Positions 42,903 to 64,000 of a stretch of DNA of 64,000 nt are shown one piece after another. The stretch comes from a virus: positions 96,051-160,050 of the IMG/VR virus record IMGVR_UViG_3300048029_000212; one strand, 5' to 3'. The position numbers and the translations under genes are program-made. The notes under the pieces are model-generated. The model did no database searches, had not been told where the DNA came from, and saw only the letters and a program-made list of their open reading frames with translations. Numbering within the stretch: the stretch's first letter is position 1; every line of letters starts with the position of its first letter.

Positions 42903-42968
<66 letters not shown>

Positions 42969-42982
42969 TCTTTGGAGATTCC

Positions 42983-43576
42983 GTGAATATCACTACAAAA
43001 ATGTCAGATGTGTTTGCAAGATCAATGACCTCTTTCTTTAGGTTTTTTGCAGACACGTTCTTCCGGCGAAACTATGGCAAACGCGCTCTCATTTTAGAGA
43101 CAGTTGCTGGAGTGCCGGGCATGGTTGGCGGAATGTTAACCCACTTGTATAGTCTACGCAGACTACAGAAGGGTAACGGCACCAAGATCCAAGAACTGTT
43201 AGACGAAGCCACTAATGAACGCAAGCACTTAATGTTCTTTATGGAAATAGTTCATCCTTCTGTTCTAGAGAGGGTTCTCATTATTTTTGTTCAGTTTATC
43301 TTCTGGCATTATTATCTTTTGATGTATATGTTGTTTCCCCGTACTGCGCATCGCATGACTGGGTACTTTGAAGAAGAGGCTGTAAATAGTTACACCAGTT
43401 ACTTGGCACTAATATCTGCAGGGGAGATTGAGGATGTTCCTGCCCCACAAATTGCCATTGACTATTACGTAGATCTTGAAGAGGGTGCAATGCTCTCTGA
43501 TATGATTGTTTGTGTCCGTCGTGATGAAATGCACCACGCCAAAGTCAATCACGCTTATGCGGATGAACGCATATAA
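42983..43576 (+). CDS. aox: Alternative oxidase (di-iron quinol oxidase)
   Basis: A 197-residue protein with the complete alternative oxidase/PTOX signature. It shows LETVAGVPGMVGGMLTHLYSL (first Glu ligand at 39), the NERKHL motif with Glu79 and His82, the EEEAVNSYTSYL motif near 130-140 and the DEMHH motif with Glu182 and His185. All expected di-iron ligand motifs are present. The enzyme oxidises quinol with oxygen without pumping protons, on the inner face of the membrane. The start is GTG at 42983 with TTGGAG upstream; ATG at 43001 is an alternative. Length fits compact bacterial forms. It probably came from a bacterial host and would bypass cytochrome oxidase during infection. Confidence 0.9.
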   Translation: MNITTKMSDVFARSMTSFFRFFADTFFRRNYGKRALILETVAGVPGMVGGMLTHLYSLRRLQKGNGTKIQELLDEATNERKHLMFFMEIVHPSVLERVLIIFVQFIFWHYYLLMYMLFPRTAHRMTGYFEEEAVNSYTSYLALISAGEIEDVPAPQIAIDYYVDLEEGAMLSDMIVCVRRDEMHHAKVNHAYADERI

Positions 43577-43628
43577 TCTTTATTGATTGTTCACATTGTA
43601 AAAATTAATTGACATTATTAACTGTAAT

Positions 43629-43689
43629 CGCATAAATAAATTATGCGAGAGGTTTACTTGAAGGGAGAAATGTAGTATAATACTCCCTA
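43629..43689 (+). promoter_or_regulatory. Promoter and operator-like region before gene 44
   Basis: A -10 box TATAAT at 43676-43681 pairs with TTTACT at 43653-43658 (17-bp spacer). The -10 is inside nested inverted repeats: AGTAT-A-ATACT, flanked by AGGGAG (43662-43667) and CTCCCT (43684-43689). Upstream, CGCATAA/TTATGCG (43629-43647) forms a perfect 7-bp hairpin that also contains CATAAATA, a one-mismatch late box. The symmetry suggests an operator or RNA hairpin. Confidence 0.5.
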
Positions 43690-43716
43690 CAACTTTTATT
43701 ATATTATGAGGTACGA

Positions 43717-44661
43717 ATGAGTAATGAATTTCTCTGGGTTGAAAAATACCGTCCCACCGCTGTGTCGCAGACTATTCTGCCTGCGGAGTTAAAAACAACT
43801 TTTCAAAACATCGTTAAAGGCGGAGAACTGCCTAATATGATGTTTGCAGGGAGTGCAGGTACGGGTAAAACTACTGTTGCCAAAGCTATCTGTGATGAGT
43901 TGGATCTTGACTACATCGTAATCAACGGATCAGAAGAAGGCAATATTGACACCCTACGCGGGAAGATCAAGCAGTTTGCCTCTTCGGTGTCCCTGTCTGG
44001 TGGGTACAAGGTTGTTATCCTAGATGAGGCGGACTATCTCAATCCACAGTCCACACAGCCCGCGTTGCGTGGGTTTATTGAAGAGTTCTCAAAGAACTGT
44101 CGTTTCATTATGACGTGCAACTTTGAGAATCGTATTATTGAACCTCTCCACTCGCGATGTTCCAAGTATTCGTTTAACTTTAGTAAGACTGATCTTCCGG
44201 AGCTCTGTGGCGACTTCATGTCACGGGTTGTTGATATTCTAAAATCTGAAAACGTTGAGTATGAGAAATCGGTCGTTGCGCAGATCATTATGAAACATGC
44301 TCCAGACTGGCGACGTGTTCTTAATGAATGTCAGCGCGGAACAATATCAGGAACACTCAACACCGTTCCCGATAAACAGACCGATATCTCCGACACATAC
44401 ACGCAGTTGTTTACTTCTTTACGCGACAAAAACTTTAAGAAGATGCGATCTTGGGTTGTCAACAATCTTGATCTAGAACCCACGGCGATATTTCGTGGTT
44501 TATATGATAGGATGTATGATCATGTTGACCCGAATAGTATACCTCAGTTGGTTCTCATTCTGGCTGACTATCAGTACAAGAATGCGTTTGTTGCGGACCA
44601 TGAGTTGAATTTAGTTGCTTGTCTCACTGAATGTATGGCAAACGTAGAGATCAAAGCATGA
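43717..44661 (+). CDS. 44: Clamp loader large subunit gp44
   Basis: A 314-residue AAA+ ATPase (T4: 319). Walker A is GSAGTGKT at 45-52, Walker B VVILDEADYL is near 107-116, and the arginine-finger SRC motif lies in LHSRCSKY near 147. Four copies join one gp62 to open gp45 and load it on primed DNA. GAGG precedes the ATG. Its stop overlaps the gene 62 ATG (ATGA). Confidence 0.95.
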   Translation: MSNEFLWVEKYRPTAVSQTILPAELKTTFQNIVKGGELPNMMFAGSAGTGKTTVAKAICDELDLDYIVINGSEEGNIDTLRGKIKQFASSVSLSGGYKVVILDEADYLNPQSTQPALRGFIEEFSKNCRFIMTCNFENRIIEPLHSRCSKYSFNFSKTDLPELCGDFMSRVVDILKSENVEYEKSVVAQIIMKHAPDWRRVLNECQRGTISGTLNTVPDKQTDISDTYTQLFTSLRDKNFKKMRSWVVNNLDLEPTAIFRGLYDRMYDHVDPNSIPQLVLILADYQYKNAFVADHELNLVACLTECMANVEIKA

Positions 44662-45038
44662 GTCCATTTGAGTTTGTGACCAGTATTAATAACACAAAAA
44701 TTAATCTTATGGACAAAGATGAGGACGTGGAGACTAAATATAACTCGTTTCTCGTAAACAGGTCTTTATCATATTTTCCAGATACTGTAATTATGTCGAA
44801 TGAAATGAACAGATTACATCATCTAGATGCGAAGATGCAATACGACTTTCTTATAAATATTGTACGTAAGAAGAAACGATTCTCTAAATGGGATAAGCCT
44901 GAACAACGAGACGACTTGGAGTGTATTAAGGAATATTTTGGGTATAGTGAATCAAAAGCGAAACAAATTATTGGGCTCTTGACAGAATCACAAATAAAAA
45001 CTATCAAAAATAAGGTATCCAGAGGTGGAAGAGAATAA
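44658..45038 (+). CDS. 62: Clamp loader small subunit gp62
   Basis: A 126-residue protein in the gp62 position between genes 44 and regA. The ATG at 44658 overlaps the gene 44 stop; a longer frame from 44631 is less likely. Family segments are SYFPDTVIMSNEMNRLHHLDAKMQYDFLINIVRKKKRFSKW and a C-terminal helix with KQIIGLLTESQIKTI. T4 gp62 is longer (187), and the compact form is usual in marine relatives. It acts as the fifth subunit of the clamp loader. Confidence 0.9.
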   Translation: MSPFEFVTSINNTKINLMDKDEDVETKYNSFLVNRSLSYFPDTVIMSNEMNRLHHLDAKMQYDFLINIVRKKKRFSKWDKPEQRDDLECIKEYFGYSESKAKQIIGLLTESQIKTIKNKVSRGGRE

Positions 45039-45060
45039 TCTAGTTCAATGGAACTCCGAC

Positions 45061-45435
45061 ATGATGTTAGAAATCACGTTGGCAGAACCAGATGACTTTT
45101 TAAAGGTCAGAGAAACACTAACGCGTATAGGGGTTGCTTCGCGTAGAGATAATACCCTATTCCAATCATGCCATATCTTGCACAAGCAGGGTAGGTACTT
45201 TATCGTCCATTTTAAGGAGTTGTTCTTGTTGGACGGCAAGAAATCTAATCTAGAAGTTTCAGACATGGAACGACGTAACACTATCGCCACTCTGCTTGCA
45301 GATTGGGGCTTAGTTGCAATAGTTAATAAAGACGTTGCACTTGACTGTGCTCCGATGAGACAGATCAAGATCATCTCATACAAAGACAAGTCCAACTGGA
45401 ACTTGCAACCGAAGTATAATATTGGAAACAACTGA
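45061..45435 (+). CDS. regA: Translational repressor RegA
   Basis: A 124-residue RNA-binding repressor (T4: 122). Matching segments are LEITLAEPDDFLKVRETLTRIG, LFQSCHILHKQGRYFIVHFKELF and the C-terminal WNLQPKYNIGNN. RegA shuts off translation of early mRNAs by binding near their starts. The frame is open from a GTG at 45025 that overlaps gene 62, but the ATG at 45061 fits the T4 N-terminus (MIEITLKKPEDF) and has GGA upstream. Placement directly after gene 62 is as in T4. Confidence 0.92.
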   Translation: MMLEITLAEPDDFLKVRETLTRIGVASRRDNTLFQSCHILHKQGRYFIVHFKELFLLDGKKSNLEVSDMERRNTIATLLADWGLVAIVNKDVALDCAPMRQIKIISYKDKSNWNLQPKYNIGNN

Positions 45436-45437
45436 TA

Positions 45438-45977
45438 ATGTCAGAATATTATGGTATTTTTGACGATCGTGATGAGAACATTCGGACCAAAACACCATTC
45501 ATAGGAAACTTGCCGTTTGATATGGAAGAGACCTATAATTGGAATGAGTACATGCAAATGATGGACTCGCATCCGAATGATCTCTACGATCGCAACTCAG
45601 ACAAAATGCGTATAGGATTAAATTCGTTTCATAGTCGCGGTAGTGCACCGGACTTTGCGAAAAAGATCTATGAAGAAATGCAGGATGTCTTCGCGCTTCA
45701 CGCAAACAAAATCACGAACATTGCGTTTAGTGGTTTTGGTCGTGCAAGCGGATCTTATCCATGGCACAAAGATTCTATGGATGTGTTCTTAGTTCAGGTT
45801 ATTAGTACGGTCGGTCTAAAAGTAGAAGGCATAAACAATAATGAACCGTTTGACTTTGAGCCAGGCATGTATGTGTATTTGCCTAGAGGAACTCACCATC
45901 AAGTGTTTCCTAAAGTTTCGCGAGTATCATTCTCATTCGGGGTAGAAGGAAGCCCAGATCCGTCAATGTACTACTAA
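45438..45977 (+). CDS. Cupin/JmjC-like or 2OG-oxygenase-like protein
   Basis: A 179-residue protein with a plausible iron site: YPWHKDSMDVFLVQVIS supplies His-x-Asp, and PRGTHHQVFPKVSRVSFSFG supplies the distal His and a following Arg. The GMYVYLPRGTHH turn is typical of cupin and JmjC-type hydroxylases. It lies 2 bp after regA and 9 bp before the next gene, so it is in the same operon. Its target could be a protein, nucleotide or metabolite and is unknown. It is not clearly related to the 34954/59222 pair. Confidence 0.6.
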   Translation: MSEYYGIFDDRDENIRTKTPFIGNLPFDMEETYNWNEYMQMMDSHPNDLYDRNSDKMRIGLNSFHSRGSAPDFAKKIYEEMQDVFALHANKITNIAFSGFGRASGSYPWHKDSMDVFLVQVISTVGLKVEGINNNEPFDFEPGMYVYLPRGTHHQVFPKVSRVSFSFGVEGSPDPSMYY

Positions 45978-45986
45978 GGACAAGAT

Positions 45987-46235
45987 ATGACAGATAACAA
46001 AAACAACATTGTTTCGTTTTCTGAAGTAGCTAAAAAGAAATTAGAGAAAGAAAAAGAATTAGATTTTTATTACAGACACTTGGACATGTGCTTGCAGAAG
46101 CAAGCGTTCATAGAAATGGACATCAAGGTCACAAAAGAAATCATCGACATGATCGAAAATGAAAGGGTTGTGTTGGTTGATGATTCTGTCCCTATTATAG
46201 AGATAGATGATGACGACTATGATCCTTTTGCGTGA
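45987..46235 (+). CDS. Small coiled-coil protein with acidic tail
   Basis: An 82-residue protein. The Lys/Glu-rich helix (EVAKKKLEKEKELDFYYRHLDMCLQKQAFIEMDIKVTKEIIDMI) is followed by an acidic end (EIDDDDYDPFA). No catalytic motif is visible. It closes the operon that starts at gene 44 and is followed by a terminator at 46290. Small proteins with the same layout occur beside regA/hsp20 in T4-like cyanophages, without a known function. Confidence 0.6.
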   Translation: MTDNKNNIVSFSEVAKKKLEKEKELDFYYRHLDMCLQKQAFIEMDIKVTKEIIDMIENERVVLVDDSVPIIEIDDDDYDPFA

Positions 46236-46289
46236 CATATTCACAAATTATATGTTACTTTTAGTATCATAACTCGTATATATAGTAAC

Positions 46290-46320
46290 GAGTGTGCCGA
46301 ATGTTTCGGGCACTCTTTTT
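46290..46320 (+). terminator. Intrinsic terminator before hsp20
   Basis: GAGTG (46290-46294) pairs with CACTC (46311-46315), and CCGAA (46297-46301) pairs with TTCGG (46305-46309), with a small internal mismatch; a T tract follows. Confidence 0.8.
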
Positions 46321-46349
46321 AAACTTGCTTAATTTTAAGGAGTCACAAC

Positions 46350-46835
46350 ATGACATTAACAGCAAAACAACTGTTCCCACGTTCAGCATTCGTCGGATTT
46401 GATACTATGATCGACGAATTGGATAGAGTCGCACGACACTCGGGTGATACGTTCCCCCCGCATAACATTCTAAAGACGGGAGAGGATCAATACCTAATCG
46501 AGTTAGCAGTCGCCGGATTCACGGAAGACGAACTCGAGATCGAAGTAAAGAACCGTACACTTAGCATTCGAGGGTCTGTAAACGACACTAGAGAGTATAT
46601 TCATAAAGGCATTTCGACGAAGAGATTTGAACGTCAGTTCCGTCTGTCGGAGTATGTTGAAGTAATGGGAGCTGATTTCAGGAACGGGTTACTTGCCATC
46701 CAATTGGAGGTAATAATCCCTGAAAGTCAGAAGCCTCGTAAAGTAACAATTAATTCGGGTGTCACTTATCAATCGACCCCGCAACTTTTAAACGAGGAGA
46801 GCAACAATGGAGAAGAGCAACCGAGCCAACTCTAG
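46350..46835 (+). CDS. hsp20: Small heat-shock protein, Hsp20 family
   Basis: A 161-residue alpha-crystallin-domain chaperone. The domain runs from about PPHNILKTGEDQYLIELAVAGF to the IPESQKPRKVTIN end, with ELEIEVKNRTLSIRG and the GLLAIQLE element before a final I-P-like motif. Hsp20 between regA and gene 43 is a conserved feature of T4-like cyanophages and some marine relatives. It probably protects phage or host proteins from aggregation in infection. AAGGAG precedes the ATG. The 3' end overlaps the next small gene. Confidence 0.9.
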   Translation: MTLTAKQLFPRSAFVGFDTMIDELDRVARHSGDTFPPHNILKTGEDQYLIELAVAGFTEDELEIEVKNRTLSIRGSVNDTREYIHKGISTKRFERQFRLSEYVEVMGADFRNGLLAIQLEVIIPESQKPRKVTINSGVTYQSTPQLLNEESNNGEEQPSQL

Positions 46836-46914
46836 GTTAGAGGAGATGGGTTGGATGTTCGCAGGACTATCAAGTGTATTCGTGGTAGCCGTCTGTGTCC
46901 AACAACTAATGTAA
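46807..46914 (+). CDS. 35-residue single-pass membrane peptide
   Basis: A 35-residue frame (MEKSNRANSRLEEMGWMFAGLSSVFV...) that overlaps the end of hsp20 by 29 bases. GAGGAG at 46795-46800 lies at good spacing. Residues 15-35 form one hydrophobic helix. It ends just before a terminator at 46921. The strong ribosome site and membrane segment favour a real gene. No function can be assigned. Confidence 0.6.
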   Translation: MEKSNRANSRLEEMGWMFAGLSSVFVVAVCVQQLM

Positions 46915-46920
46915 TAAATA

Positions 46921-46946
46921 AGGGGGAGTAACATCCCCCTTTTTTG
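46921..46946 (+). terminator. Intrinsic terminator after hsp20 operon
   Basis: AGGGGGA (46921-46927) pairs with TCCCCCT (46934-46940) around a 6-nt loop, followed by a T-rich tract. Confidence 0.85.
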
Positions 46947-46954
46947 TGAGTCAT

Positions 46955-47755
46955 ATGAAAGCAATACAAATAGTTATGAAAGGAGACGAACGGTCTGAAG
47001 AGTACGCAGAACTCTCCCGTCAGTCTTTCCAACGCGCTATCGACGAAGGTTACATCGACTCTATTGAAACCTTTGACGCAATCACCCCACAATCTGATAC
47101 GTTTCAAGAACATGTAGATAAGTATGTTTGGTCTAAAAGTCTTATGACTTTAGACACATTATCAGGCAAAGAAAAAGATGACCACTCCCCTACAGAGAAG
47201 GCTGGGATGTGTTCTCACTGGGATTTGATGCGCCAACAGGGCGAGTCAGAAGAAAAGTTCTGGATCATGGAACATGACACTTGGTTGGTGGAAGAGAGGT
47301 ATGAATCCTTTAAACTACTCGCTGAGTACGCAGAGAACACGCTCTACGCGAATATAGGACTGTTCATGGGTATGTATTGCATGGATCAAAGATTTGCGCA
47401 CTGGGGATACCACATGCTCTTGAACAATGCATTTCCTATCAACTGTGGGCCCTATTGTGTGATGCAACGTCTTTTCAGAACATACACTACACGTCATCTA
47501 GAACTACCAGAAATTAATTATTATGGAATCAAAAATACCGCTTTACATCCTTGGACCAAATGTGATACTATAGGTGTTGGTCGAGATATCGGGATTTATT
47601 TTAATTATCCTGATCGTCATATGACAGGAATCCCTACACCGACGACACAGGTGATTTCAAAACGCCTTTCAGTCACACAGGATCATCATGGATATAGTGA
47701 TAAAAAGATACAGGAACCTTGGAATAGACATAAATTTTTTCACGTTATTGATTGA
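46955..47755 (+). CDS. Glycosyltransferase-like protein (GT25-like)
   Basis: A 266-residue protein whose first half looks like family 25 lipooligosaccharide glycosyltransferases. It has a short N-terminal strand and EYAELSRQSFQRAI, then EKAGMCSHWDLMRQ (81-94), comparable to the GEIGCxxSH motif. FWIMEHDTWL (103-111) stands where LILEDDA is usual, with His in place of one Asp. The frame opens at GTG 46946, but ATG 46955 avoids the terminator T tract. It probably modifies host surface sugar or virion glycans. Its TGA stop lies within the -35 box of the gene 43 promoter. Confidence 0.55.
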   Translation: MKAIQIVMKGDERSEEYAELSRQSFQRAIDEGYIDSIETFDAITPQSDTFQEHVDKYVWSKSLMTLDTLSGKEKDDHSPTEKAGMCSHWDLMRQQGESEEKFWIMEHDTWLVEERYESFKLLAEYAENTLYANIGLFMGMYCMDQRFAHWGYHMLLNNAFPINCGPYCVMQRLFRTYTTRHLELPEINYYGIKNTALHPWTKCDTIGVGRDIGIYFNYPDRHMTGIPTPTTQVISKRLSVTQDHHGYSDKKIQEPWNRHKFFHVID

Positions 47756-47780
47756 CATACGCATAATTTGGGTGTATAAT
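47752..47780 (+). promoter_or_regulatory. Consensus sigma70 promoter for gene 43
   Basis: TTGACA at 47752-47757, a 17-bp spacer and TATAAT at 47775-47780. The -35 includes the upstream TGA stop. The expected +1 is near 47787, one base before the ATG of gene 43, so the mRNA would be leaderless. Confidence 0.85.
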
Positions 47781-47787
47781 TCACCAC

Positions 47788-50265: not shown

Positions 50266-50290
50266 CATATATAATTTATTACCGTATAAT
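50262..50290 (+). promoter_or_regulatory. Consensus sigma70 promoter for the gene at 50299
   Basis: TTGACA at 50262-50267, a 17-bp spacer and TATAAT at 50285-50290. The gene 43 TGA stop (50263-50265) lies in the -35 box. The expected +1 near 50297 is two bases before the ATG. Confidence 0.85.
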
Positions 50291-50298
50291 ATCAGATT

Positions 50299-50832
50299 AT
50301 GAAAACAGTAAAAAGAGAATCTTTTGACAGAAAAGAAGATGGTGAGTGGGGCTTGACAAAGACTTGGACTTTGTGTTATACTCCCATTTCCTTTGATGAA
50401 GTAGATGAAGTTTCTGAAGAGATACGTAAGGTATTAAGACCAGAACTACTGTCTTCTAAATATAAAGAGGATAACGAGACCAATCCTTTATTTGGTCATT
50501 GTTATCATTCTACTCAGGCCATGTATATCATGCTTGATGGTGATGAGAAAGATGATCTCATATCATATAGTGGTACAGATGAACTGGGGAATATACATTG
50601 GTGGTTGAATCATAACGATACAATCATCGATGTTACGGCGGGTCAATATGACCTTATGGAATGTGATCCGCCTTATGGTGAAGGTAACCCAACAAAGTGG
50701 TACGGTTGGAGATACCGATTCCATAAACGGTCAATGGGTTTGGTTCAAGACGTTCAAGGTGGTAAACTTGTGTGTACTGATCCGGATGGTAATGTAATTT
50801 CTATCAGAAAGCCCTTGCCAAACACACTTTAA
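50299..50832 (+). CDS. Possible papain-like-fold protein of unknown function
   Basis: A 177-residue protein. The segment FGHCYHSTQAMYIML (Cys then His), followed by IHWWLNHNDTIIDVTAGQYD, gives a Cys...His...Asp order like that of papain-fold peptidases or transglutaminases. A final RFHKRS is basic. Similar GHCY...HWW...DVTA proteins occur in phages and bacteria, and I know no proven function. It has its own promoter and a predicted leaderless start, with no ribosome site. It lies apart from, but beside, three more unusual genes up to 54279. The fold is inference. Confidence 0.55.
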   Translation: MKTVKRESFDRKEDGEWGLTKTWTLCYTPISFDEVDEVSEEIRKVLRPELLSSKYKEDNETNPLFGHCYHSTQAMYIMLDGDEKDDLISYSGTDELGNIHWWLNHNDTIIDVTAGQYDLMECDPPYGEGNPTKWYGWRYRFHKRSMGLVQDVQGGKLVCTDPDGNVISIRKPLPNTL

Positions 50833-50844
50833 GTGTGGTACTAT
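50815..50844 (+). promoter_or_regulatory. Possible sigma70 promoter with hairpin before 50916
   Basis: TTGCCA at 50815-50820, an 18-bp spacer and TACTAT at 50839-50844. The spacer holds an inverted repeat, CACACT (50823-50828) and AGTGTG (50832-50837). Both boxes are imperfect, so this is tentative. Confidence 0.4.
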
Positions 50845-50915
50845 ATACAAATACTGATCCCTAAAGGACAGTGTATTGAAACTAAACTAACTCACGACTA
50901 AATCGGAGAGACAAA

Positions 50916-52112
50916 ATGTCAAAAAACAAGGTAACAAATATAACTTCTTCACGTGGCGCTGATGGTACATTGAAGACAAAGGCCCAAAACAAGAAGAAGT
51001 GGATTATAAATCTGAAGGAACGCACCTTCAACGAACAAGATGTTGAAACCTACGAGTGGTTATACGAGACTCTATGGTCCGAATCTGAACCAAAACACTT
51101 TGGTGATGAAATCCACCCAGCCATCCGCTTTTTGCACTTCGAACTGAAACCCATAAAATCGACCGTTGCTCAGGATCACCGCAAAGGTGGCCGTGTCAAG
51201 GATCCAAAGAATGTGTTTCGTTCTTTGGATAAGGGTTTTAAGTTAACCGAACTTCCACCTTCGGAACTACGTGTCGGTACAACCGACACTCAGTTGACCG
51301 GAGATACACGTAAAGAGTACTTCTCAGCGAACGGTCATGAAAACTACATTGCTGCCATTTACGTACCTGTAGAAGGCGCAACTGAGTGGGAAGTCGAGGA
51401 TGCTATCTCTTACATGGGTCAGACCCTACAAGAGGAACCCGCATCTAACCCGAACTCAATGGAAGATGTAAAGGATGCACTGACTGTTCAGTCGACTATC
51501 TTTAAAGAGTCTGGAGGTAAGGCAGGTGTTAACCCACTAAGCATTGAGGATCTTCTTGCACGTACTGAACGCATTGGTTTTAGGTTTACTGAGGGTAAGC
51601 GCCACGATATCGCCTACTCTGTCTACAACCAGTTCAACCCTTCTACGCCAGTTGCGTCGTGGTCTTCGAACCCTAAGGCTCACTTCCAGATCAAGGCCTA
51701 CATGACGCAATTCAAGTTGCAGAATTCGAAAGATGGCAAGGTCATCTATATGTGTTCGGCTGCTTCGACTATCTCAAAGGTATTTACTTCTGCTTTACGT
51801 AAGGCAGCAGCGAATCCAAATGCAGAGATACGAATTGTTTTGCATACAAGTACTCTTACTGGCACAGACCCTCTGACTTCTTTCGAGACCGTTGCAAAAA
51901 ACAACATTGACAAGTTCAATACTTTTATGTCAGATGCCAACATTGTATTGAATGGTGATGGTAACTCGCGTATCAGCATATACGGACTCCTACCGGCTGT
52001 TGGTTCTGCACACTCTTTCGATGAACCAGTCCTGTATGATCCGATCACAGAGACACTTTACCAACGCAAGGGCAATTACTTTTGTGACATCTCAACTGAA
52101 GATGATCAGTAA
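50916..52112 (+). CDS. Unknown 398-residue protein
   Basis: I do not recognise this protein. The N-terminal 100 residues are basic with Trp-rich WIINLKERTFNEQDVETYEWLYETLW. The middle is acidic. The C-terminal half (about 260-390) looks like an alternating beta/alpha domain: GKVIYMCSAASTISKVFTSALRK, then AEIRIVLHTST, then NIVLNGDGNSRISIYGLLP. It could bind nucleotides, but no Walker or nuclease motif is visible. A GGAGAG ribosome site precedes the ATG. It has its own leader and terminator, so it forms a monocistronic unit beside the DruA-like and primase-like genes. Confidence 0.75.
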   Translation: MSKNKVTNITSSRGADGTLKTKAQNKKKWIINLKERTFNEQDVETYEWLYETLWSESEPKHFGDEIHPAIRFLHFELKPIKSTVAQDHRKGGRVKDPKNVFRSLDKGFKLTELPPSELRVGTTDTQLTGDTRKEYFSANGHENYIAAIYVPVEGATEWEVEDAISYMGQTLQEEPASNPNSMEDVKDALTVQSTIFKESGGKAGVNPLSIEDLLARTERIGFRFTEGKRHDIAYSVYNQFNPSTPVASWSSNPKAHFQIKAYMTQFKLQNSKDGKVIYMCSAASTISKVFTSALRKAAANPNAEIRIVLHTSTLTGTDPLTSFETVAKNNIDKFNTFMSDANIVLNGDGNSRISIYGLLPAVGSAHSFDEPVLYDPITETLYQRKGNYFCDISTEDDQ

Positions 52113-52117
52113 GTAAC

Positions 52118-52142
52118 AAGGGGACGCAAGTCCCCTTTTTTG
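52118..52142 (+). terminator. Intrinsic terminator after 50916 gene
   Basis: AAGGGGAC (52118-52125) pairs with GTCCCCTT (52130-52137) around a GCAA tetraloop, followed by T residues. Confidence 0.92.
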
Positions 52143-52146
52143 TGTC

Positions 52147-52175
52147 TTGACAGTTGACACTTTATTTGATATAAT
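52147..52175 (+). promoter_or_regulatory. Consensus sigma70 promoter for DruA-like gene
   Basis: TTGACA at 52147-52152, a 17-bp spacer and TATAAT at 52170-52175. A second TTGACA directly follows at 52154-52159, giving a tandem -35 repeat. The leader is about 17 nt and has GGGAG at 52188. Confidence 0.88.
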
Positions 52176-52198
52176 GTGTTTCGTAATGGGAGTAATAC

Positions 52199-53335
52199 AT
52201 GATTCTATCTAAGCAAGACGCAATCCATGCGGCGAATGTCTTTTCTGATTTCTTTGGCAGTTTCGATCGCATCGACGAATACCAACGTTCTATCAAAATG
52301 GATCGTATGGCAACCTTTCCAGCATCTCTGCCTGGCATGGGCCCAGAGACGGATTTGTTTGACGACTTCTCTATTCATCCCAACGACATGGAATTCTCAA
52401 TATACGAGTGTCGTCAGGATCACTTCATGACATATATGGAGATCACGACATCCGCGCCAGTCGAGTCGTCGATCCCAGGCAAACAACTTCTCTACATCGT
52501 CAAAGAGAAGAACACTGGTCAAGTATTTGGGATGATCCGTTTTGGGTCACCTACGATTAATTCGCGTCCACGTAACGAATGGTTGGGTGCGCCTCTTGAC
52601 ACCATGAACCCAGATGTTATGAAAAGATTTAACAAGTCTGCCATAATGGGTTTTAATATTGTTCCTGTCCAGCCCGTAGGATATAACTACCTTGGTGGTA
52701 AACTGTTGGCGGGCATTTGTTGTTCGCATCTAGTGCGTCGTGCGTTAAACAAAAAGTACGATGCAAACATATGTCTTTTCGAAACAACTAGTTTGTATGG
52801 TTCCTCTAAGTCATCATCGATGTATGATGGTATGCGGCCGTTCTTACGTCACAACGGATTGACAGACAGTAACTTTGCACCGTTGATCAACGATACCAAG
52901 TTCCGAACACTGAACGACTGGTTCAAGGAACGCAACGAGGGTGAGTATCTGGTTCCCGCCGATGCGTCATCTCGTAAACTGAAGACACAGACAAAGATGG
53001 CTTCAATCATCAAGGCCTCACTCAAAGGTGTGGATGATGGTGCGTATCAAAAGTTCTGTCAAACCTTCCTTGATGCGAAGGGTCTGACAGAACGTAAGCG
53101 TTCGTATTATAGCACATATGGTCATGAGGCTCAGTCGGTTAAAGATTACATGAATTTAAAAACTGATGAACTCAAACCAGCAGAAAACTTTGACAGATTC
53201 GAAGTTGAGAATATCATTGAGTGGTGGAAGAACAAGGCGTCTAAACGTTATGAGACCCTTAAGTCCGAGGGTAGACTACGCACGATAGTTGAGACTTGGA
53301 ATACTAATCCCGAAGATATCGACATCATAAGATGA
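52199..53335 (+). CDS. DruA-like (DUF4338-like) protein
   Basis: A 378-residue protein. The central ~130 residues follow the pattern of DUF4338/DruA: GQVFGMIRFGSP, then RPRNEWLGAP, then NKSAIMGFNIVPVQPVGYNYLGGKLL, a helix with LVRRALNKKY, and ICLFETTSLYGSSKSSSMYDGM. In DruA proteins these correspond to the RDEWIGW, IxNxxRFLILP, NLxSxLL and LLETFVD elements. DruA defines Druantia anti-phage systems in bacteria, with unknown chemistry. The terminal ~130 residues are basic and helical. It overlaps the next gene by four bases (ATGA). The relation is by pattern only and needs a profile search. Confidence 0.55.
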   Translation: MILSKQDAIHAANVFSDFFGSFDRIDEYQRSIKMDRMATFPASLPGMGPETDLFDDFSIHPNDMEFSIYECRQDHFMTYMEITTSAPVESSIPGKQLLYIVKEKNTGQVFGMIRFGSPTINSRPRNEWLGAPLDTMNPDVMKRFNKSAIMGFNIVPVQPVGYNYLGGKLLAGICCSHLVRRALNKKYDANICLFETTSLYGSSKSSSMYDGMRPFLRHNGLTDSNFAPLINDTKFRTLNDWFKERNEGEYLVPADASSRKLKTQTKMASIIKASLKGVDDGAYQKFCQTFLDAKGLTERKRSYYSTYGHEAQSVKDYMNLKTDELKPAENFDRFEVENIIEWWKNKASKRYETLKSEGRLRTIVETWNTNPEDIDIIR

Positions 53336-54279: not shown

Positions 54280-54280
54280 T

Positions 54281-57192: not shown

Positions 57193-57527
57193 GTGAATTA
57201 AACCTAGACAAACCGTCAGAGTTTCTAGATTATAAACTGGAACCTGTTGTTGTTGAGGGTAAAGACGCGTGGAACGTTAATCTTCTGCGAGAACCTTATA
57301 ACGACATAACTGTTCGATATAACAATGTCACTATCGATGGCGAAGATGGTGTGATTAAATTTAACTTTGATGTTATTGACACACCCGACACAAGCGTGTA
57401 TAATATTGAAAATACTGGACTTCAGCAATTTGCTGCAGACGTACTTCAAGATATTTTAGAGGCGGCTATTAAGACATATGACGGAAATCAATCTACAACA
57501 GACGATTCTACGGAATCTACTGACTAA
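57189..57527 (+). CDS. Small protein of unknown function between uvsX and gene 41
   Basis: A 112-residue acidic protein (LNLDKPSEFLDYKLEPVVVEGKDAWNVNLLREPYNDITVRYNNV...). It is predicted beta-rich through residue 75, then a helix (GLQQFAADVLQDILEAAIKTY) and a Thr/Ser/Asp tail. It sits at the ATGA overlap with uvsX and overlaps gene 41 by 50 bases. A small gene at this position is common in T4-like marine phages. No function can be assigned. Confidence 0.65.
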   Translation: MSELNLDKPSEFLDYKLEPVVVEGKDAWNVNLLREPYNDITVRYNNVTIDGEDGVIKFNFDVIDTPDTSVYNIENTGLQQFAADVLQDILEAAIKTYDGNQSTTDDSTESTD

Positions 57528-58872: not shown

Positions 58873-58883
58873 GGAGTCCAACA

Positions 58884-59066
58884 ATGGATCCGTACTTGCA
58901 TACACTTATAGCTGTCGCACTCATGTTTATAACATATATGGTGGGACGAACCACAGGCACACAAAGAGGTATTAATTCAACAGTTTCATTCCTACTACAT
59001 ATGGGTGTGTGTACTGAAGAAGACATTAAGAAAGCAAATGAAGAATTCGAGCAAGATAACTTCTAG
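58884..59066 (+). CDS. Small single-pass membrane protein
   Basis: A 60-residue protein with one membrane helix (HTLIAVALMFITYMVGRTTG) and a cytoplasmic acidic end (TEEDIKKANEEFEQDNF). AAGGAG precedes the ATG. Proteins with the same DxxLHTLIAxxLMF opening are common small genes in T4-like cyanophages. It overlaps the next small gene by 29 bases. Function unknown. Confidence 0.7.
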   Translation: MDPYLHTLIAVALMFITYMVGRTTGTQRGINSTVSFLLHMGVCTEEDIKKANEEFEQDNF

Positions 59067-59229
59067 TTCTTGGATTTGTCCAGTGATTGAAGTTGAAGGA
59101 GGAGAAATTGCCTTCGAGATAAACGATGATTTGATGGACCAATTAAATTTAAAATCTGGTGATACAATTGTATTTAAAAGTACACTGAAAGATCGTTACT
59201 CAATGGTGATTATTCGCGACAATGACTGA
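59038..59229 (+). CDS. AbrB/MazE-like small protein
   Basis: A 63-residue protein. CPVIEVEGGEIAFEINDDLMDQLNLKSGDTIVFK follows the swapped-hairpin AbrB/SpoVT pattern, with LxLKxGDxI as the diagnostic end. The ATG at 59038 is used; the frame extends upstream to a GTG at 59005 inside the previous gene. Such proteins bind DNA as dimers or act as antitoxins, and similar small genes are common in T4-like cyanophages. No toxin partner is visible beside it, so a transcription role is more likely. Confidence 0.6.
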   Translation: MKNSSKITSSSWICPVIEVEGGEIAFEINDDLMDQLNLKSGDTIVFKSTLKDRYSMVIIRDND

Positions 59230-59896
59230 AGTAGTAATTCGTAATAAAGAAATGTTAGATGTGTTGAATAGCTTCTCTAATGAGATGCTTTCTAAACCCT
59301 CTCTCAATGACAAAAAGTATTGGACTTATCGTGAAGAGAAAGATATTGACTTGGGGTCTTATTATACCTCATATGAATATCTGTTAGAATGTCTTTCACG
59401 AGACCGTCTAGTTGGCCCGCCCGATAGGTATTTCGCACAACCTATAGCAAAAATGGTGCGTGAAGATAAAGAAACTTGGGGAGACTTCATGCAGAGGGTC
59501 AAGTACGATTTCGCATCGGAACTTGGCGCACACACTTCTGCATTACTCTCTTACTACCCGCCAGGCGGTTTTGTGGGATGGCATACTAACTATGATGCCA
59601 ATGCATACCAAGTCTTGTTCACGTGGTCAGAGACCGGAGAAGGTTTCTTTGAATACTACGACAGACAGAAAGACAAAATCATCAAGATCGATGATGTCCC
59701 TGGCTGGCAATGTCGTCACTATTATTTCGGTTCAGAACAAGAAGAAGACCTACACTGTTGGCATGCTGCATACACAGAGTGCCAACGCATCACACTTGCA
59801 TATAAGTTTGTGAATAACGGCAGTGTAAATAGTCCTGAAGACGCACAGGCACGTGCTATGCGTGACATGTTGATTGAAGATATAGAGACTCCGTAA
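59222..59896 (+). CDS. 2OG-Fe(II) oxygenase-like protein, copy B
   Basis: A 224-residue paralogue of the protein at 34954. The shared core is YYPPGGFVGWHTNYDANAYQV, TWSETGEGFFEY, PGWQCRHYYF and a distal WHAAYTECQRITLAY. It has more of a metal site than copy A: His in WHTNYD is followed by Asn and then Asp. The canonical His-x-Asp is still absent, so iron binding must be tested. It lies one base before iscU. Target unknown. Confidence 0.55.
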   Translation: MTEVVIRNKEMLDVLNSFSNEMLSKPSLNDKKYWTYREEKDIDLGSYYTSYEYLLECLSRDRLVGPPDRYFAQPIAKMVREDKETWGDFMQRVKYDFASELGAHTSALLSYYPPGGFVGWHTNYDANAYQVLFTWSETGEGFFEYYDRQKDKIIKIDDVPGWQCRHYYFGSEQEEDLHCWHAAYTECQRITLAYKFVNNGSVNSPEDAQARAMRDMLIEDIETP

Positions 59897-60270
59897 TGTA
59901 TTCAGATAAAGTTTTAGATCACTACGAAAACCCACGCAATGTGGGTAAGATGGACAAGGAAGACGACAACGTAGGAACTGGCATGGTCGGTGCACCCGCG
60001 TGTGGTGACGTTATGCAATTACAGATCCTTGTCGGTGATGATGGAATCATTGAAGATGCGAAATTTAAAACTTATGGTTGTGGTAGTGCTATTGCTTCTA
60101 GTTCTCTACTCACCGAATGGGTCAAAGGTAAAAATATCGAAGACGCAGGGAATATCCGTAATACAGACATCGCCAAAGAACTCGCACTCCCACCCGTAAA
60201 AATCCATTGCAGTGTACTCGCAGAGGATGCGATCAAAGCTGCTATCAAAGACTACAAAGAGAAGAATTAA
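59896..60270 (+). CDS. iscU: Iron-sulfur cluster scaffold IscU
   Basis: A 124-residue, apparently complete IscU (E. coli: 128). It carries the three cluster-ligand cysteines in APACGDVM (C36), TYGCGSAIASSSL (C62) and KIHCSVLAEDAIKAAI (C105), the Asp after the first Cys, and the LPPVK chaperone-binding motif at 98-102. It is very close to gammaproteobacterial IscU from memory, including VGAPACGDVM and TEWVKGK. IscS, HscA and HscB are not encoded here, so it would use host partners. It lies in an operon with the oxygenase-like gene and is followed by an overlapping ATG. It was probably acquired from a host. Confidence 0.95.
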   Translation: MYSDKVLDHYENPRNVGKMDKEDDNVGTGMVGAPACGDVMQLQILVGDDGIIEDAKFKTYGCGSAIASSSLLTEWVKGKNIEDAGNIRNTDIAKELALPPVKIHCSVLAEDAIKAAIKDYKEKN

Positions 60271-61040
60271 TGTTACTGACCGCAGGATGTAGTTTCGTCT
60301 GGGGGGACGAACTGAAAGGTTTTGATAATAATCCGCCCACACATTGGCCCTTGACTTTCACTCATATCCTTGCGGGTAAAATGGCGATGCCCTATATCAA
60401 CTTGGGATCTTGTGGTGCCGGTAATGATAAAATATTTCGTGAAGTTACTGACTATCTCCATCATCCTAGACAAGAAACTCCGGTCACACACATCGTCGTC
60501 ATATGGTCAGCCTTTCAACGGGCGGAGATCGTAGAGTATATGCCTAAAGAAAGAGAGATCAAGATTCAAAGACAAGGTGATGTCACTCAATTTTCTCCAT
60601 TGAGAACAGAGGGCATATATGATCTCGATAAACGTCGTGTTATGAATGAATGGTTTGATACCGCTTATGACTCACGTACAGACGTTATGCATACTCTCAC
60701 CAAAATGAAAACTCTAGAACTTTTATGTGACAGTATGGACATTAAACTTGTGCAGGGATTCTTCCATAGACGATGTTGGTCAAACATTATGGCTATCCTA
60801 CGCAATTCTGTGTCAGACGAAGACGATAAGTCGTCTTCAAAAAGTATGCCATTATACATATCTTGGTTAAAAGACTCTATTGCAGATCTTAAACCCACCA
60901 GTCGTGTGGGCGCAGGTAAAGGTAAAGATTTATACACCATCGCCATTGAAAACAATGATCTAAAAACATACGGACACCCTGGCGAAAAATCTCAGGTCAT
61001 TTTTTCCGACTTTCTTCACAAAAAATTTATTGACATGTAG
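60270..61040 (+). CDS. SGNH/GDSL-hydrolase-like protein
   Basis: A 256-residue protein. The start is ATG at 60270, sharing a base with the iscU stop (TAATG). AGCSFVWGDEL provides the Ser block near residue 5, NLGSCGAGNDKIF provides the Gly/Asn blocks, and VVIWSAFQRAEIV follows as a central strand. The final His block may be in YGHPGEKSQVIFSDFLHKKF. Similar proteins are common in marine myoviruses and may deacetylate or de-esterify surface sugars. The GSCGAGND spacing is unusual for true hydrolases, so activity is uncertain. Confidence 0.6.
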   Translation: MLLTAGCSFVWGDELKGFDNNPPTHWPLTFTHILAGKMAMPYINLGSCGAGNDKIFREVTDYLHHPRQETPVTHIVVIWSAFQRAEIVEYMPKEREIKIQRQGDVTQFSPLRTEGIYDLDKRRVMNEWFDTAYDSRTDVMHTLTKMKTLELLCDSMDIKLVQGFFHRRCWSNIMAILRNSVSDEDDKSSSKSMPLYISWLKDSIADLKPTSRVGAGKGKDLYTIAIENNDLKTYGHPGEKSQVIFSDFLHKKFIDM

Positions 61041-61058
61041 GGTCTATTATAGTATAAT
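61030..61058 (+). promoter_or_regulatory. Consensus sigma70 promoter for 61093 operon
   Basis: TTGACA at 61030-61035, a 17-bp spacer and TATAAT at 61053-61058. The upstream gene's stop lies just inside the spacer. The -10 region shares TATAGTATAAT with the promoters at 38086 and 38741. Confidence 0.88.
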
Positions 61059-61092
61059 ATTCTCCATAAATTAACCAAAGTGGAGTACTACT

Positions 61093-61317
61093 ATGCCTTA
61101 CCTAGACGTTTACGTCGATGATGATCAGTTTGATAAAATAGTTGTTGAAGAACTAGATTTCGCTATCCTAGAAGATAAAGAACTCGACACCGATCCTGAG
61201 TTGCGCAGAGCATTCATGATGGTTAGAAACTATTTTAGCGCCCAACCTAGTATGGACCAAAGTTCTTTTGGGTTTATGTATAGTGAGGAGGAGATGCAGA
61301 ATGGTATATCAAGCTAA
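61093..61317 (+). CDS. Small acidic protein of unknown function
   Basis: A 74-residue acidic protein (MPYLDVYVDDDQFDKIVVEELDFAILEDKELDTDPELRR...). It has no membrane segment or catalytic motif and is probably a helical binding protein. It opens the operon led by the promoter at 61030. The 3' end overlaps the next small gene by 17 bases and carries its GAGGAGGAG ribosome site. Small acidic proteins of this form are common in T4-like marine phages near gene 61. Confidence 0.6.
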   Translation: MPYLDVYVDDDQFDKIVVEELDFAILEDKELDTDPELRRAFMMVRNYFSAQPSMDQSSFGFMYSEEEMQNGISS

Positions 61318-61426
61318 TCTGACCAGAGAATATGCGCAACTGCGCAGAAAGGCAGGCGACAATCCTACGCCCAAACAAAAGAAAAAACTTCTGAAGTTAG
61401 AAAAGTTACTGAGGATGACGTTATGA
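61301..61426 (+). CDS. 41-residue basic peptide
   Basis: A 41-residue frame (MVYQANLTREYAQLRRKAGDNP... then Lys/Leu-rich to the end). GAGGAGGAG at 61285-61293 is a strong ribosome site with 7-nt spacing. The stop overlaps the ATG of the exported hydrolase (ATGA). The Lys/Leu-rich C-terminus is amphipathic and may bind nucleic acid or membrane. Tight coupling on both sides supports a real gene. Confidence 0.65.
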   Translation: MVYQANLTREYAQLRRKAGDNPTPKQKKKLLKLEKLLRMTL

Positions 61427-61950
61427 AGATCTTCCGTGGTGTGTGTGTTTTAACTCTATTGATAATTTTTGGATATGTCGGATATGTCAATGCGGAAAAT
61501 GTTAAGATCAATGCCACGGATGAACTTGAGTGTCTTGCACTCAATGTCTATCACGAAGCTCGTAGTGAAAGTCTGGCTGGACAGTATGCTGTCGCAGACG
61601 TGACGCTCAATCGTGTGAAGAATGATCGTTATCCATCCACAATATGTGGCGTCGTCAAACAGGCAGTGATGTCTGAGTGGGGCGTAGATCGAGGACTTTT
61701 CATACCGAAGAAAAATATGTGTCAGTTTAGTTGGTACTGTGACGGTCAATCAGACGTTCCAGTAGAGACTTACGCTTGGTTGCGGTCAAAGGGCATCGCT
61801 CAAGATATTCTTTCATATAGGAAGTATAGGGGACTCACAGAAGGTGCTACACACTATCACGCTGATTATGTAAAGCCGGAGTGGAGTTTTAGTAGAAAGA
61901 TGACGTTGGTTGGCCGCATTGGTGACCATATATTTTACGTGGAGGAATAA
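61423..61950 (+). CDS. Exported cell-wall hydrolase, SleB/Hydrolase_2 family
   Basis: A 175-residue protein with a clear signal peptide (KIFRGVCVLTLLIIFGYVGYVNA, cut likely after NAE). The mature part is Hydrolase_2-like: ECLALNVYHEARSES, TLNRVKNDRYPSTICGVV, FSWYCDG and the C-terminal THYHADYVKPEWSFSRK. The Glu in HEARSE is the likely catalytic acid of this lysozyme-like family. Export by the host secretion system would place it in the periplasm for lysis. No holin is clear in the window, so a signal-arrest or Sec-dependent endolysin is plausible. ATGA overlap with the preceding gene. Confidence 0.85.
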   Translation: MKIFRGVCVLTLLIIFGYVGYVNAENVKINATDELECLALNVYHEARSESLAGQYAVADVTLNRVKNDRYPSTICGVVKQAVMSEWGVDRGLFIPKKNMCQFSWYCDGQSDVPVETYAWLRSKGIAQDILSYRKYRGLTEGATHYHADYVKPEWSFSRKMTLVGRIGDHIFYVEE

Positions 61951-61951
61951 T

Positions 61952-62188
61952 ATGTTACCTGAACTTGCAATTGTTTTTTCTCTAAATACTACTGCTCCCG
62001 AAGATTTTGTTCCGTTGGAGACGGACACACAAAGAATCGTAAGGGAGTTATTTGAGAAGTCGTACGAAGAAAAACGATCGGTTCTCAGAACAAGAAAGGT
62101 AATCGTTCCCATAGAGGACCGTACAGATCTTGTCGTGAGATTTAAAAGAAAAAAGTTCTTTACGCTTGTCTACTACTTCGATTTATGA
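61952..62188 (+). CDS. Small protein of unknown function after hydrolase
   Basis: A 78-residue protein (MLPELAIVFSLNTTAPEDFVPLETDTQRIVRELFEKSYEEKRSVL...). GGAGG at 61941-61945 is a strong ribosome site, and the gene follows the hydrolase stop by one base. A hydrophobic start precedes an amphipathic helix and a basic end (RFKRKKFF). It could be a spanin- or lysis-linked protein, but no lipobox is visible. It shares its end with the promoter at 62166. Confidence 0.5.
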   Translation: MLPELAIVFSLNTTAPEDFVPLETDTQRIVRELFEKSYEEKRSVLRTRKVIVPIEDRTDLVVRFKRKKFFTLVYYFDL

Positions 62189-62194
62189 TATAAT
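62166..62194 (+). promoter_or_regulatory. Sigma70-like promoter before 62220
   Basis: TTGTCT at 62166-62171, a 17-bp spacer and TATAAT at 62189-62194. The -35 is imperfect and lies inside the preceding coding sequence. Confidence 0.5.
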
Positions 62195-62219
62195 AACAAC
62201 ATCCCAAGAGGTAACGAAA

Positions 62220-62471
62220 GTGGAAAAATTAGCATATCCATCCGCATATTTTAATGATGGTAAGCTGAGTACTCAAAATGTCTACGTTGCGTTTGATCCT
62301 ATAGGAACAATCATCGGCGTATACCAGTGCATTGAGACGGCTATCGACAAGTGCGCAGGAGAGGTGTCAAATCACTTCTGTGAACAAGTGCATGTCGAAG
62401 TCTCCGACGTTGCTATTTTTGTTGAAGGGGAAAAGGGTAAAGTTACTATCCTCATTGAGGATTTAAAGTAA
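62220..62471 (+). CDS. Small protein of unknown function before tRNA-Glu
   Basis: An 83-residue protein. The start chosen is GTG at 62220 with AAGAGGT at 62206-62212; the frame extends upstream to a TTG at 62166, which lies inside the promoter's -35. It is beta-rich (NVYVAFDPIGTIIGVYQCIETAIDKCAGEVS) with two or three Cys and no signal peptide. It lies directly before tRNA-Glu. Function unknown. Confidence 0.55.
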   Translation: MEKLAYPSAYFNDGKLSTQNVYVAFDPIGTIIGVYQCIETAIDKCAGEVSNHFCEQVHVEVSDVAIFVEGEKGKVTILIEDLK

Positions 62472-62482
62472 CTCTATATAAT
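62455..62482 (+). promoter_or_regulatory. Sigma70-like promoter for tRNA-Glu and aceA
   Basis: TTGAGG at 62455-62460, a 16-bp spacer and TATAAT at 62477-62482. The expected start near 62489 is four bases before the tRNA, so the RNA would begin at the tRNA 5' end. Confidence 0.55.
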
Positions 62483-62492
62483 GCAGTGAAAC

Positions 62493-62568
62493 GTCCGGTT
62501 CGTCTAGTGGTCTAGGACACCGCCCTTTCACGGCGGGAACAGGGGTTCGAACCCCCTACTGGATACCA
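62493..62568 (+). tRNA. tRNA-Glu (anticodon TTC)
   Basis: A 76-nt cloverleaf. Acceptor GTCCGGT/ACTGGAT includes two G-T pairs. The anticodon stem CCGCC/GGCGG encloses loop CTTTCAC with anticodon TTC (codons GAA/GAG). T arm AGGGG/CCCCT encloses TTCGAAC. CCA is encoded. It ends 19 nt before aceA. GAA is a heavily used codon in the fibre and core genes here. Confidence 0.95.
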
Positions 62569-62587
62569 TATTATTACAGGATTTGTT

Positions 62588-63829
62588 ATGAAAAAGAGAA
62601 ACTACTCGCCCGAAGACGTAACTCGTTTGCAGGGCACAGTTCAAATCGACCACACCCTCGCGCAAATGGGCGCATCAAAACTTCGAAAGTTATTTGAAGA
62701 AAACGAGTACATCAACACGTTTGGAGCATATAATGGACAACAAGCAGTACAACACGTTAAAGCAGGACTCAAAGCGATATATCTTTCGGGATGGCAAGTG
62801 GCTGCGTCGGCCAACTCTCATGGCGAAGTTTATCCAGATCAGTCGTTATATGCTGTTGATAGCGTTCCTAACGTTGTGCGTAGCATCAATAATGCATTTA
62901 GACGCCAAGACCAAATCGAATATCTGGAAACTGGAAACGGGTTTGAATTTGCCCCTATTATTGCCGATGCTGAAGCAGGATTCGGAGGAGTTCTAAATGC
63001 GTATGAACTTGCAAGAAATCTTATCGAAGCAGGTGCTGCCGCTGTTCACTTTGAAGACCAAGTTGCTGCCGAGAAGAAGTGCGGACACTTGGGAGGAAAG
63101 GTTCTCATACCGACTAGTCAAGCTATACGCAACCTTAATGCCGCTCGCCTTGCTAGTGACGTTGCTGGCACTGATACAGTCGTTATTGCTCGTACCGATG
63201 CTGAGTCTGCTAAGTTAATCTCTAGCAACATCTCAGACATCGACAAACCATTCATCAAGAGAGTCTCGCAGGGTACTGCGGGATCTATTCAATGTCGCAC
63301 ACAAGAAGGGTTCTATATGCTCGAAGAGGGCAGAGGACTAGAGTTCGGTTGTGTGCGTGGTCAGGCATACGCAGAATACGCAGACCTCGTTTGGTGTGAA
63401 ACATCGACACCCGACTTGAAGGATGCGAAGCGTTTCGCTGACGCAGTCAAAGGTGCAGTCCCCGACGCAATGTTGGCATACAACTGTTCACCGTCATTCA
63501 ACTGGCGCAAGTCAATTCCAGGCGATCAAGAACTAAAAGATTTTCAACGTGAGTTGGGTAAGATGGGATTCAAGTTCCAGTTTATCACACTTGCAGGATT
63601 CCACCAGACTAACTACTCTGTCTTTGATTTCGCAAACCGATACAAAGACGAAGGTATGTACGCATACTCGTTGTTACAAGAAGCAGAGTTTGCCGCAGAG
63701 TCACGTGGATACACAGGTGCGAAGCACCAGAGAGAAGTGGGTGTCGGTTACTTCGATGCCATCACCACTACATTGGGGTCTAGTTCAACTGCCGCGATGT
63801 CAGGATCAACTGAAGAGGACCAGTTCTAA
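62588..63829 (+). CDS. aceA: Isocitrate lyase
   Basis: A 413-residue, apparently full-length isocitrate lyase (E. coli: 434). The signature KKCGHLGG (163-170) includes the catalytic Cys165. Other conserved elements are YLSGWQVAASAN, DADAEAGFGG-type IIADAEAGFGGVLNAYEL, VHFEDQ, LVWCETSTPDL, AYNCSPSFNW and the end TAAMSGSTEEDQF, which matches the family C-terminus that closes the active site. It splits isocitrate into glyoxylate and succinate, the first step of the glyoxylate shunt. Malate synthase is not in this window. The ATG has AGGA upstream and lies 19 nt after tRNA-Glu. It was probably acquired from a host. Confidence 0.95.
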   Translation: MKKRNYSPEDVTRLQGTVQIDHTLAQMGASKLRKLFEENEYINTFGAYNGQQAVQHVKAGLKAIYLSGWQVAASANSHGEVYPDQSLYAVDSVPNVVRSINNAFRRQDQIEYLETGNGFEFAPIIADAEAGFGGVLNAYELARNLIEAGAAAVHFEDQVAAEKKCGHLGGKVLIPTSQAIRNLNAARLASDVAGTDTVVIARTDAESAKLISSNISDIDKPFIKRVSQGTAGSIQCRTQEGFYMLEEGRGLEFGCVRGQAYAEYADLVWCETSTPDLKDAKRFADAVKGAVPDAMLAYNCSPSFNWRKSIPGDQELKDFQRELGKMGFKFQFITLAGFHQTNYSVFDFANRYKDEGMYAYSLLQEAEFAAESRGYTGAKHQREVGVGYFDAITTTLGSSSTAAMSGSTEEDQF

Positions 63830-64000
63830 TGTTTAAGAGTATTGGATTTGCAATTTACGACCTTTACAGATACTTCTTTGATTTGAAGATCAATCCATTG
63901 AGACACATTCCTAACGAACTTGTGCAGTTTATTCTCATGTTCTACTTGTCGGTGATGTGGTCAGTAGTATTCACCTTCTGGGCTGGATACACTTGGATGT
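63829..64000 (+). CDS. Membrane protein, 3' end outside window
   Basis: The first 57 codons of a gene whose ATG shares a base with the aceA stop (TAATG). The sequence MFKSIGFAIYDLYRYFFDLKINPLRHIPNE is followed by one hydrophobic helix (LVQFILMFYLSVMWSVVFTFW). Coupling to aceA suggests a joint operon. It could be a small membrane protein like those common in T4-like marine phages. The product cannot be named from this piece. Confidence 0.6.
   Translation, partial: MFKSIGFAIYDLYRYFFDLKINPLRHIPNELVQFILMFYLSVMWSVVFTFWAGYTWM

Follow-up and report, generated by a model that had tools for sequence, protein, structure and literature searches.

Why should a phage carry genes for an alternative oxidase (AOX), an Fe–S cluster scaffold (IscU) and an isocitrate lyase (ICL), and do the three act together? 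The question is raised by a 64,000-nucleotide stretch of viral DNA (the window), corresponding to bases 96051–160050 of the near-complete 160,050 bp virus genome IMGVR_UViG_3300048029_000212, in which the three genes lie within one 21 kb part (window positions 42983–63829). A first-pass annotation had proposed an uncoupled, carbon-saving respiration in which ICL feeds host succinate dehydrogenase, an enzyme that IscU would help to mature, and AOX drains the resulting quinol to oxygen.

From their sequences, AOX, ICL, a small two-helix membrane protein (SMP), a cytochrome c, a peroxiredoxin (PRX) and a cytochrome c peroxidase (CCP) on balance probably form a modular respiratory-maintenance set of T4-like phages of marine Gammaproteobacteria. 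The genes are present and intact, they cluster recurrently and co-directionally, and they are spread over phage lineages. No paper on the combination of phage, ICL and AOX was found in a search that was thin on subscription journals and is therefore weak evidence of novelty.

Integrity and context of AOX, ICL and IscU

The window belongs to a T4-like phage with gp43, gp44, gp45, gp41, uvsX, ribonucleotide reductase (RNR), terminase and tail genes. The two ends of the record overlap, at 91% nucleotide identity, and represent the ICL locus of two strain variants (window 63576–64000 versus record bases 1–774; L241); the genome is therefore essentially complete. The second ICL at the start of the record was considered as a paralogue and rejected, as it is the overlapping end of a strain variant. 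A close relative, phage C48C1 (OQ984149, 156 kb, circular, placed in Kyanoviridae), has AOX, IscU and ICL at the same places, with 86, 90 and 95% amino-acid identity, respectively, which excludes chance or contamination for the three genes. The C48C1 annotation calls AOX and ICL 'hypothetical'. Compared with C48C1, all three are under strong purifying selection, with dN/dS values of 0.05 for AOX, 0.09 for IscU and 0.04 for ICL (0.03 for terminase, used as the comparison gene). Each matches its Pfam family and keeps its catalytic residues, so that the initial assignment of the three genes to one part of a phage genome was borne out.

AOX (42983..43576, + strand, 197 amino acids; GTG start, alternatively ATG at 43001) matches PF01786 (E = 1.2e-67). 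It is immediately preceded by tRNA-Thr(TGT) (42893..42968, + strand; ARAGORN) and flanked by the sliding clamp (gp45) and clamp loader (gp44). Among relatives sampled by DNA polymerase and covering this interval, 14 of 18 have AOX there; the four that lack it have a more distant DNA polymerase. All six di-iron ligands (E, ExxH, E, ExxH) are conserved in the alignment with trypanosomal AOX and are invariant among 19 phage AOXs. The gene is intact with its active-site residues and is predicted to specify a cyanide-resistant quinol oxidase; enzymes of this family do not pump protons. Its nearest bacterial relatives are from marine Gammaproteobacteria. In the AOX tree it falls within an all-phage clade of 47 (SH-aLRT 95), and phage AOXs as a whole have several origins, having entered phages more than once.

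ICL (62588..63829, + strand, 413 amino acids) is of the short AceA type (PF00463, E = 4.8e-94). The KKCGH signature is kept and residues 4–413 align with solved ICLs; cleavage of isocitrate is predicted on this basis. tRNA-Glu(TTC) (62493..62568, + strand) lies immediately 5′ of the gene, and upstream of both is a sigma70-like promoter match (TTGAGG-16-TATAAT; 62455..62482, + strand), a consensus match only; the count of such matches for the region is not above chance. The window is enriched in T4-type late motifs (TATAAATA), mostly upstream of structural genes, and none was found there near AOX, IscU or ICL; this absence gives no more than a hint that expression is early or middle. The SMP gene is TAATG-coupled to ICL (63829..64000, + strand) and runs past the window end, a complete copy being available from the other strain variant (L241:603-941, record bases 603–941). 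In the record-start variant alone, an extra gene of about 330 nucleotides lies between ICL and SMP and encodes a 103-amino-acid cytochrome c with a signal peptide.

IscU (59896..60270, + strand, 124 amino acids; PF01592, E = 1.4e-53; PHROG 8429) retains the three Cys, the Asp and the HscA-binding LPPVK motif and aligns with bacterial IscU (E = 5.5e-66). It is TAATG-coupled to a putative 2-oxoglutarate/Fe(II) oxygenase (59222..59896, + strand), which was assigned by eye and matches no Pfam family; the pair is located after gp41.

Clustering in other phages

At least 531 AOX-, 156 ICL- and 599 IscU-encoding stretches were counted in IMG/VR. Pairs were scored when adjacent and co-directional with a gap of at most 150 nucleotides, sequences below 93% nucleotide identity being taken as distinct. 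SMP is found directly after ICL in 12 distinct phage sequences and after AOX in four; PRX follows AOX in nine, AOX follows cytochrome c in six and AOX follows ICL in four. Rarer pairs were SMP–AOX, cytochrome c–SMP, SMP–IscU and ICL–cytochrome c (two each) and cytochrome c–IscU and AOX–IscU (one each). When all families within 1.5 kb of AOX were ranked, with no preselection, over 68 AOX groups outside the lineage of the window phage, SMP came first (20 groups), followed by ICL (15), an unnamed family (14), cytochrome c (12), a lysozyme-like family (10), PRX (9) and RNR (8 and 6). In a further group of AOX phages (L332, L447 and L476), AOX has RNR genes, cytochrome c and glutaredoxin nearby; L332, phage-like in appearance, was binned as Synechococcus.

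ICL and AOX adjoin, or lie within about 1.3 kb of each other, in several different phage backbones. The orders observed were ICL–AOX (L111, L152, L158), ICL–SMP–AOX (L125, L407), ICL–SMP–cytochrome c–AOX (L128, L129, L412–414, L131, L445) and AOX–PRX–ICL (L065, L077, L079, L143). In the ICL tree, the phage ICLs form one clade (100/100), separate from the sampled short ICLs of bacteria, and ICL–AOX proximity needs about six state changes, at least four of which are forced by supported branches; the pairing was thus gained or lost at least four times on this tree. Because AOX entered phages more than once, the pairing with ICL involves AOXs of different clades. Such recurrent clustering in one direction speaks for a functional connection among ICL, AOX, SMP, cytochrome c and PRX.

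SMP gave zero Pfam or PHROG matches, and a fold search with its AlphaFold model (pLDDT 75) found no PDB match better than E = 7, so that structure suggested no function for it. It is a candidate new protein family, linked to AOX, ICL, cytochrome c, IscU and CoxA. A few bacteria (L329, L337, L383 and L330; SAR86 and Cellvibrionales) also have SMP homologues, 0.7–4.3 kb away from their chromosomal AOX; these are 62–83% identical to the SMP of L383, and because of them SMP may originate from a host.

Probable respiratory maintenance and competing readings

As a respiratory-maintenance set, the genes would act in an infected host whose respiratory proteins are no longer renewed. AOX, as a single small di-iron protein requiring no haem or copper, would take over from the terminal oxidase or relieve it, handing electrons from quinol to oxygen, and oxidation of NADH and succinate, hence precursor supply, could continue through it. 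ICL would convert isocitrate to succinate and glyoxylate, bypassing two NADH-producing decarboxylations; the succinate would yield quinol through host succinate dehydrogenase and the glyoxylate malate through host malate synthase G. Peroxide would be removed by PRX, and by CCP with cytochrome c. IscU may renew damaged Fe–S clusters.

Genes of the cytochrome c oxidase bear on whether such respiration would be uncoupled. Contig G027 (24.7 kb), which is plainly from the lineage of the window phage, with 18 open reading frames (ORFs) syntenic with it at 53–95% in the one part compared, has the order CoxA–Cox11–PRX...CCP. The order is AOX...CoxB–CoxA in L486, and CoxB–Cox11–CoxA and then an SMP homologue (profile E = 7e-14) in L494, a 134 kb viral record; L494 also has DoxX-like, plastocyanin/azurin-family (PF00127) and endolysin-like genes. 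A 6 kb contig binned in a bacterial metagenome-assembled genome (MAG), L326, reads ICL–AOX–SMP–CoxB–CoxA–Cox11. An ordinary bacterial chromosome locus was considered for L326 and rejected, since both its ICL and its AOX belong to phage clades and another copy of CoxA is present elsewhere in the MAG.

Because relatives carry CoxA, CoxB and Cox11 instead or additionally, the shared theme appears to be continued electron flow to oxygen and not uncoupling. The uncoupled, carbon-saving model in its exact form draws on the ICL–AOX linkage, on the presence of malate synthase in hosts and on the lack of proton pumping by AOX. Genes for the aa3 oxidase, a proton pump, lie in this region in relatives; they count against 'uncoupled' as stated, and strict uncoupling is not required where a pump is carried at the same locus. 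'Carbon-saving' as stated was not supported either; malate synthase occurred in none of the 26 phage records searched, which included the window genome and C48C1; nor was a succinate dehydrogenase recognised in the genome parts scanned. With the weak linkage of IscU added, we consider the exact model decidedly unlikely. Malate synthase G is present in 12 of 16 candidate hosts, and glyoxylate therefore need not accumulate. A broader proposal, which we put forward tentatively as quite possible and somewhat short of probable, is an interchangeable replacement respiratory chain in phages of heterotrophic marine bacteria, joined by SMP and made up of AOX, cytochrome c, subunits of the aa3 oxidase and their copper chaperone, ICL to feed in carbon, and peroxide control.

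Two peroxide-related genes lie downstream of ICL in the lineage of the window phage and, in its record, outside the window: PRX (record 1590–2183) and CCP (record 8068–9498), a 476-amino-acid lipoprotein matching di-haem cytochrome c peroxidases and carrying two CXXCH motifs. Also encoded outside the window are a glutaredoxin, a class I RNR and a radical-SAM/SPASM protein. PRX, CCP and cytochrome c indicate redox or peroxide control at least equally, which again tells against the uncoupled, carbon-saving model. They could instead belong to a defence against oxidative stress, with any saving of energy and carbon secondary: AOX would keep the quinone pool oxidized and so lessen superoxide formation, PRX and CCP with cytochrome c would destroy peroxide, ICL would lower the NADH supply and IscU would rebuild damaged clusters. 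The nine distinct AOX–PRX adjacencies and the position of PRX and CCP 3′ of ICL agree with this. In Acinetobacter, aceA protects from H2O2 and malate synthase does not (PMC6779741), and a phage ICL without malate synthase fits this. Against it, the CoxA/CoxB proton pump found at these loci does not act directly as an antioxidant, and neither catalase nor superoxide dismutase was recognised in the genome parts scanned. We regard defence against oxidative stress as a serious possibility that falls short of being probable; it stands close behind respiratory maintenance, overlaps with it and could be a different view of one phenomenon.

The same haem proteins bear on iron. In an iron-sparing response, AOX would avoid haem, ICL would start the glyoxylate shunt and IscU would manage scarce iron; AOX requires two irons only, and iron limitation induces the glyoxylate shunt in marine heterotrophs (PMC6618146). 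Such a response fits poorly because the set holds the iron-rich proteins cytochrome c, di-haem CCP and CoxA, and it is very improbable.

Several observations weigh against respiratory maintenance. In the window, AOX, IscU and ICL stand in three contexts, with 19 kb from AOX to ICL, and so do not form one operon there. ICL was present in just two of 20 AOX-bearing records of 42–250 kb, and six ICL-bearing records lack AOX. These contigs may be fragments, and the samples were chosen with the studied genes themselves, except for the polymerase sample, which is unable to test ICL. CoxA was seen in a handful of viral records only, and that of G027 is cut by the contig end.

Alternatively, the three genes may have been acquired independently and share a genome by accident, IscU serving phage Fe–S proteins, AOX redox balance and ICL carbon. 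The three separate positions, the absence of ICL from most other AOX phages and the frequency of IscU without either partner favour such unlinked cargo, as does the radical-SAM/SPASM Fe–S protein of the phage, a possible IscU client, IscU having earlier been tied to phage Fe–S proteins (PMC5332604). That ICL, SMP, cytochrome c, AOX and PRX adjoin again and again across backbones makes chance hard to invoke, and for the three genes together we consider accident unlikely. For IscU alone it is the more likely explanation. Most IscU phages lack AOX and ICL: long records selected by IscU contained AOX in one of eight cases and ICL in none of eight. A few direct adjacencies do occur; AOX and IscU overlap in four sequences (L229, L226, L236, L237), and a few phages couple IscU to AOX, SMP or cytochrome c. 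IscU is thus an uncertain, doubtful member of the set, its link being weak. The co-occurrence check suggested with the first-pass annotation found all three genes in C48C1 and in contig fragments of at least two further phage groups (L077/L079/L143; L078). Of the single programme proposed there, the AOX–ICL part was upheld by their repeated proximity in other backbones; the case for including IscU, which mostly occurs without either, is weak.

The host is suggested by CoxA alone. The L486 CoxA is 89–90% identical to Halieaceae CoxA, which suggests marine Gammaproteobacteria, perhaps Halieaceae; this is the best clue available and it is indirect, and reliance on it alone also weighs against respiratory maintenance. 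Three other proteins were tried and rejected as host indicators. IscU is closer to Halieaceae and other Gammaproteobacteria (80–83%) than to SAR86 (60–64%), which only counts against SAR86 as a close source. For ICL, candidate hosts have mostly long ICLs at about 40%, the best bacterial short ICLs reaching 58–61%. For CCP the identity is merely about 31%.

Other regions of the window were noted in passing. A single ORF of 5,165 amino acids (4110–19607, + strand) occupies the tail-fibre/structural region, and only about 450 of its amino acids align to C48C1 (48%). Between DNA polymerase and primase (50299–53335) lie three genes that C48C1 does not have, including one for a DruA-family protein (PF14236, E = 1.3e-9); C48C1 has a DNA methyltransferase in this place. 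A JmjC_2-like protein (45438–45977; PF08007, E = 3e-6) adjoins regA and is conserved in the lineage.

Comparison with known viral systems

Cyanophages prop up the photosynthetic electron transport of their hosts, and the replacement respiratory chain, if true, would be the respiratory counterpart of their photosynthesis genes. If the recurrent set is real, viruses would also be managing how non-photosynthetic marine bacteria consume oxygen and route carbon, and respiration estimates would be affected. Virus-encoded AOX is reportedly also found in prasinoviruses, the giant viruses of algae, according to keyword matches.

The cyanophage plastoquinol terminal oxidase (PTOX) is likewise a phage-encoded di-iron quinol oxidase of the AOX superfamily, proposed to sustain electron flow and redox balance in infected cells (PMC7472177). 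The window AOX differs in having no match to the PTOX PHROG at E ≤ 1e-3 (one related phage AOX matches it, at only 4.7e-4), in its respiratory and not photosynthetic partners and in its bacterial kin, which are marine Gammaproteobacteria.

Isocitrate lyase in T4-like marine viral genomes has been described as an aceBA operon (TARA_ERS478052_N000008; PMC5332604), and aceAB has been reported from Pacific viromes (PMC4053976). Unlike these, the window ICL is found without malate synthase, and the partners of ICL are SMP, cytochrome c and AOX in place of AceB. IscU of the same protein family is known from T4-like marine phages (PMC5332604); the window IscU is distinguished by its proximity to Halieaceae and other Gammaproteobacteria over SAR86 and by the coupling to AOX, SMP or cytochrome c that a few phages show.

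Haem–copper oxidase genes were earlier claimed for the viral size fraction of the Indian Ocean, as cbb3-type oxidase reads (PMC3474794). Those were reads only, whereas the genes described here are aa3-type CoxA and CoxB with Cox11 on phage-like contigs, one of which is syntenic with the window phage.

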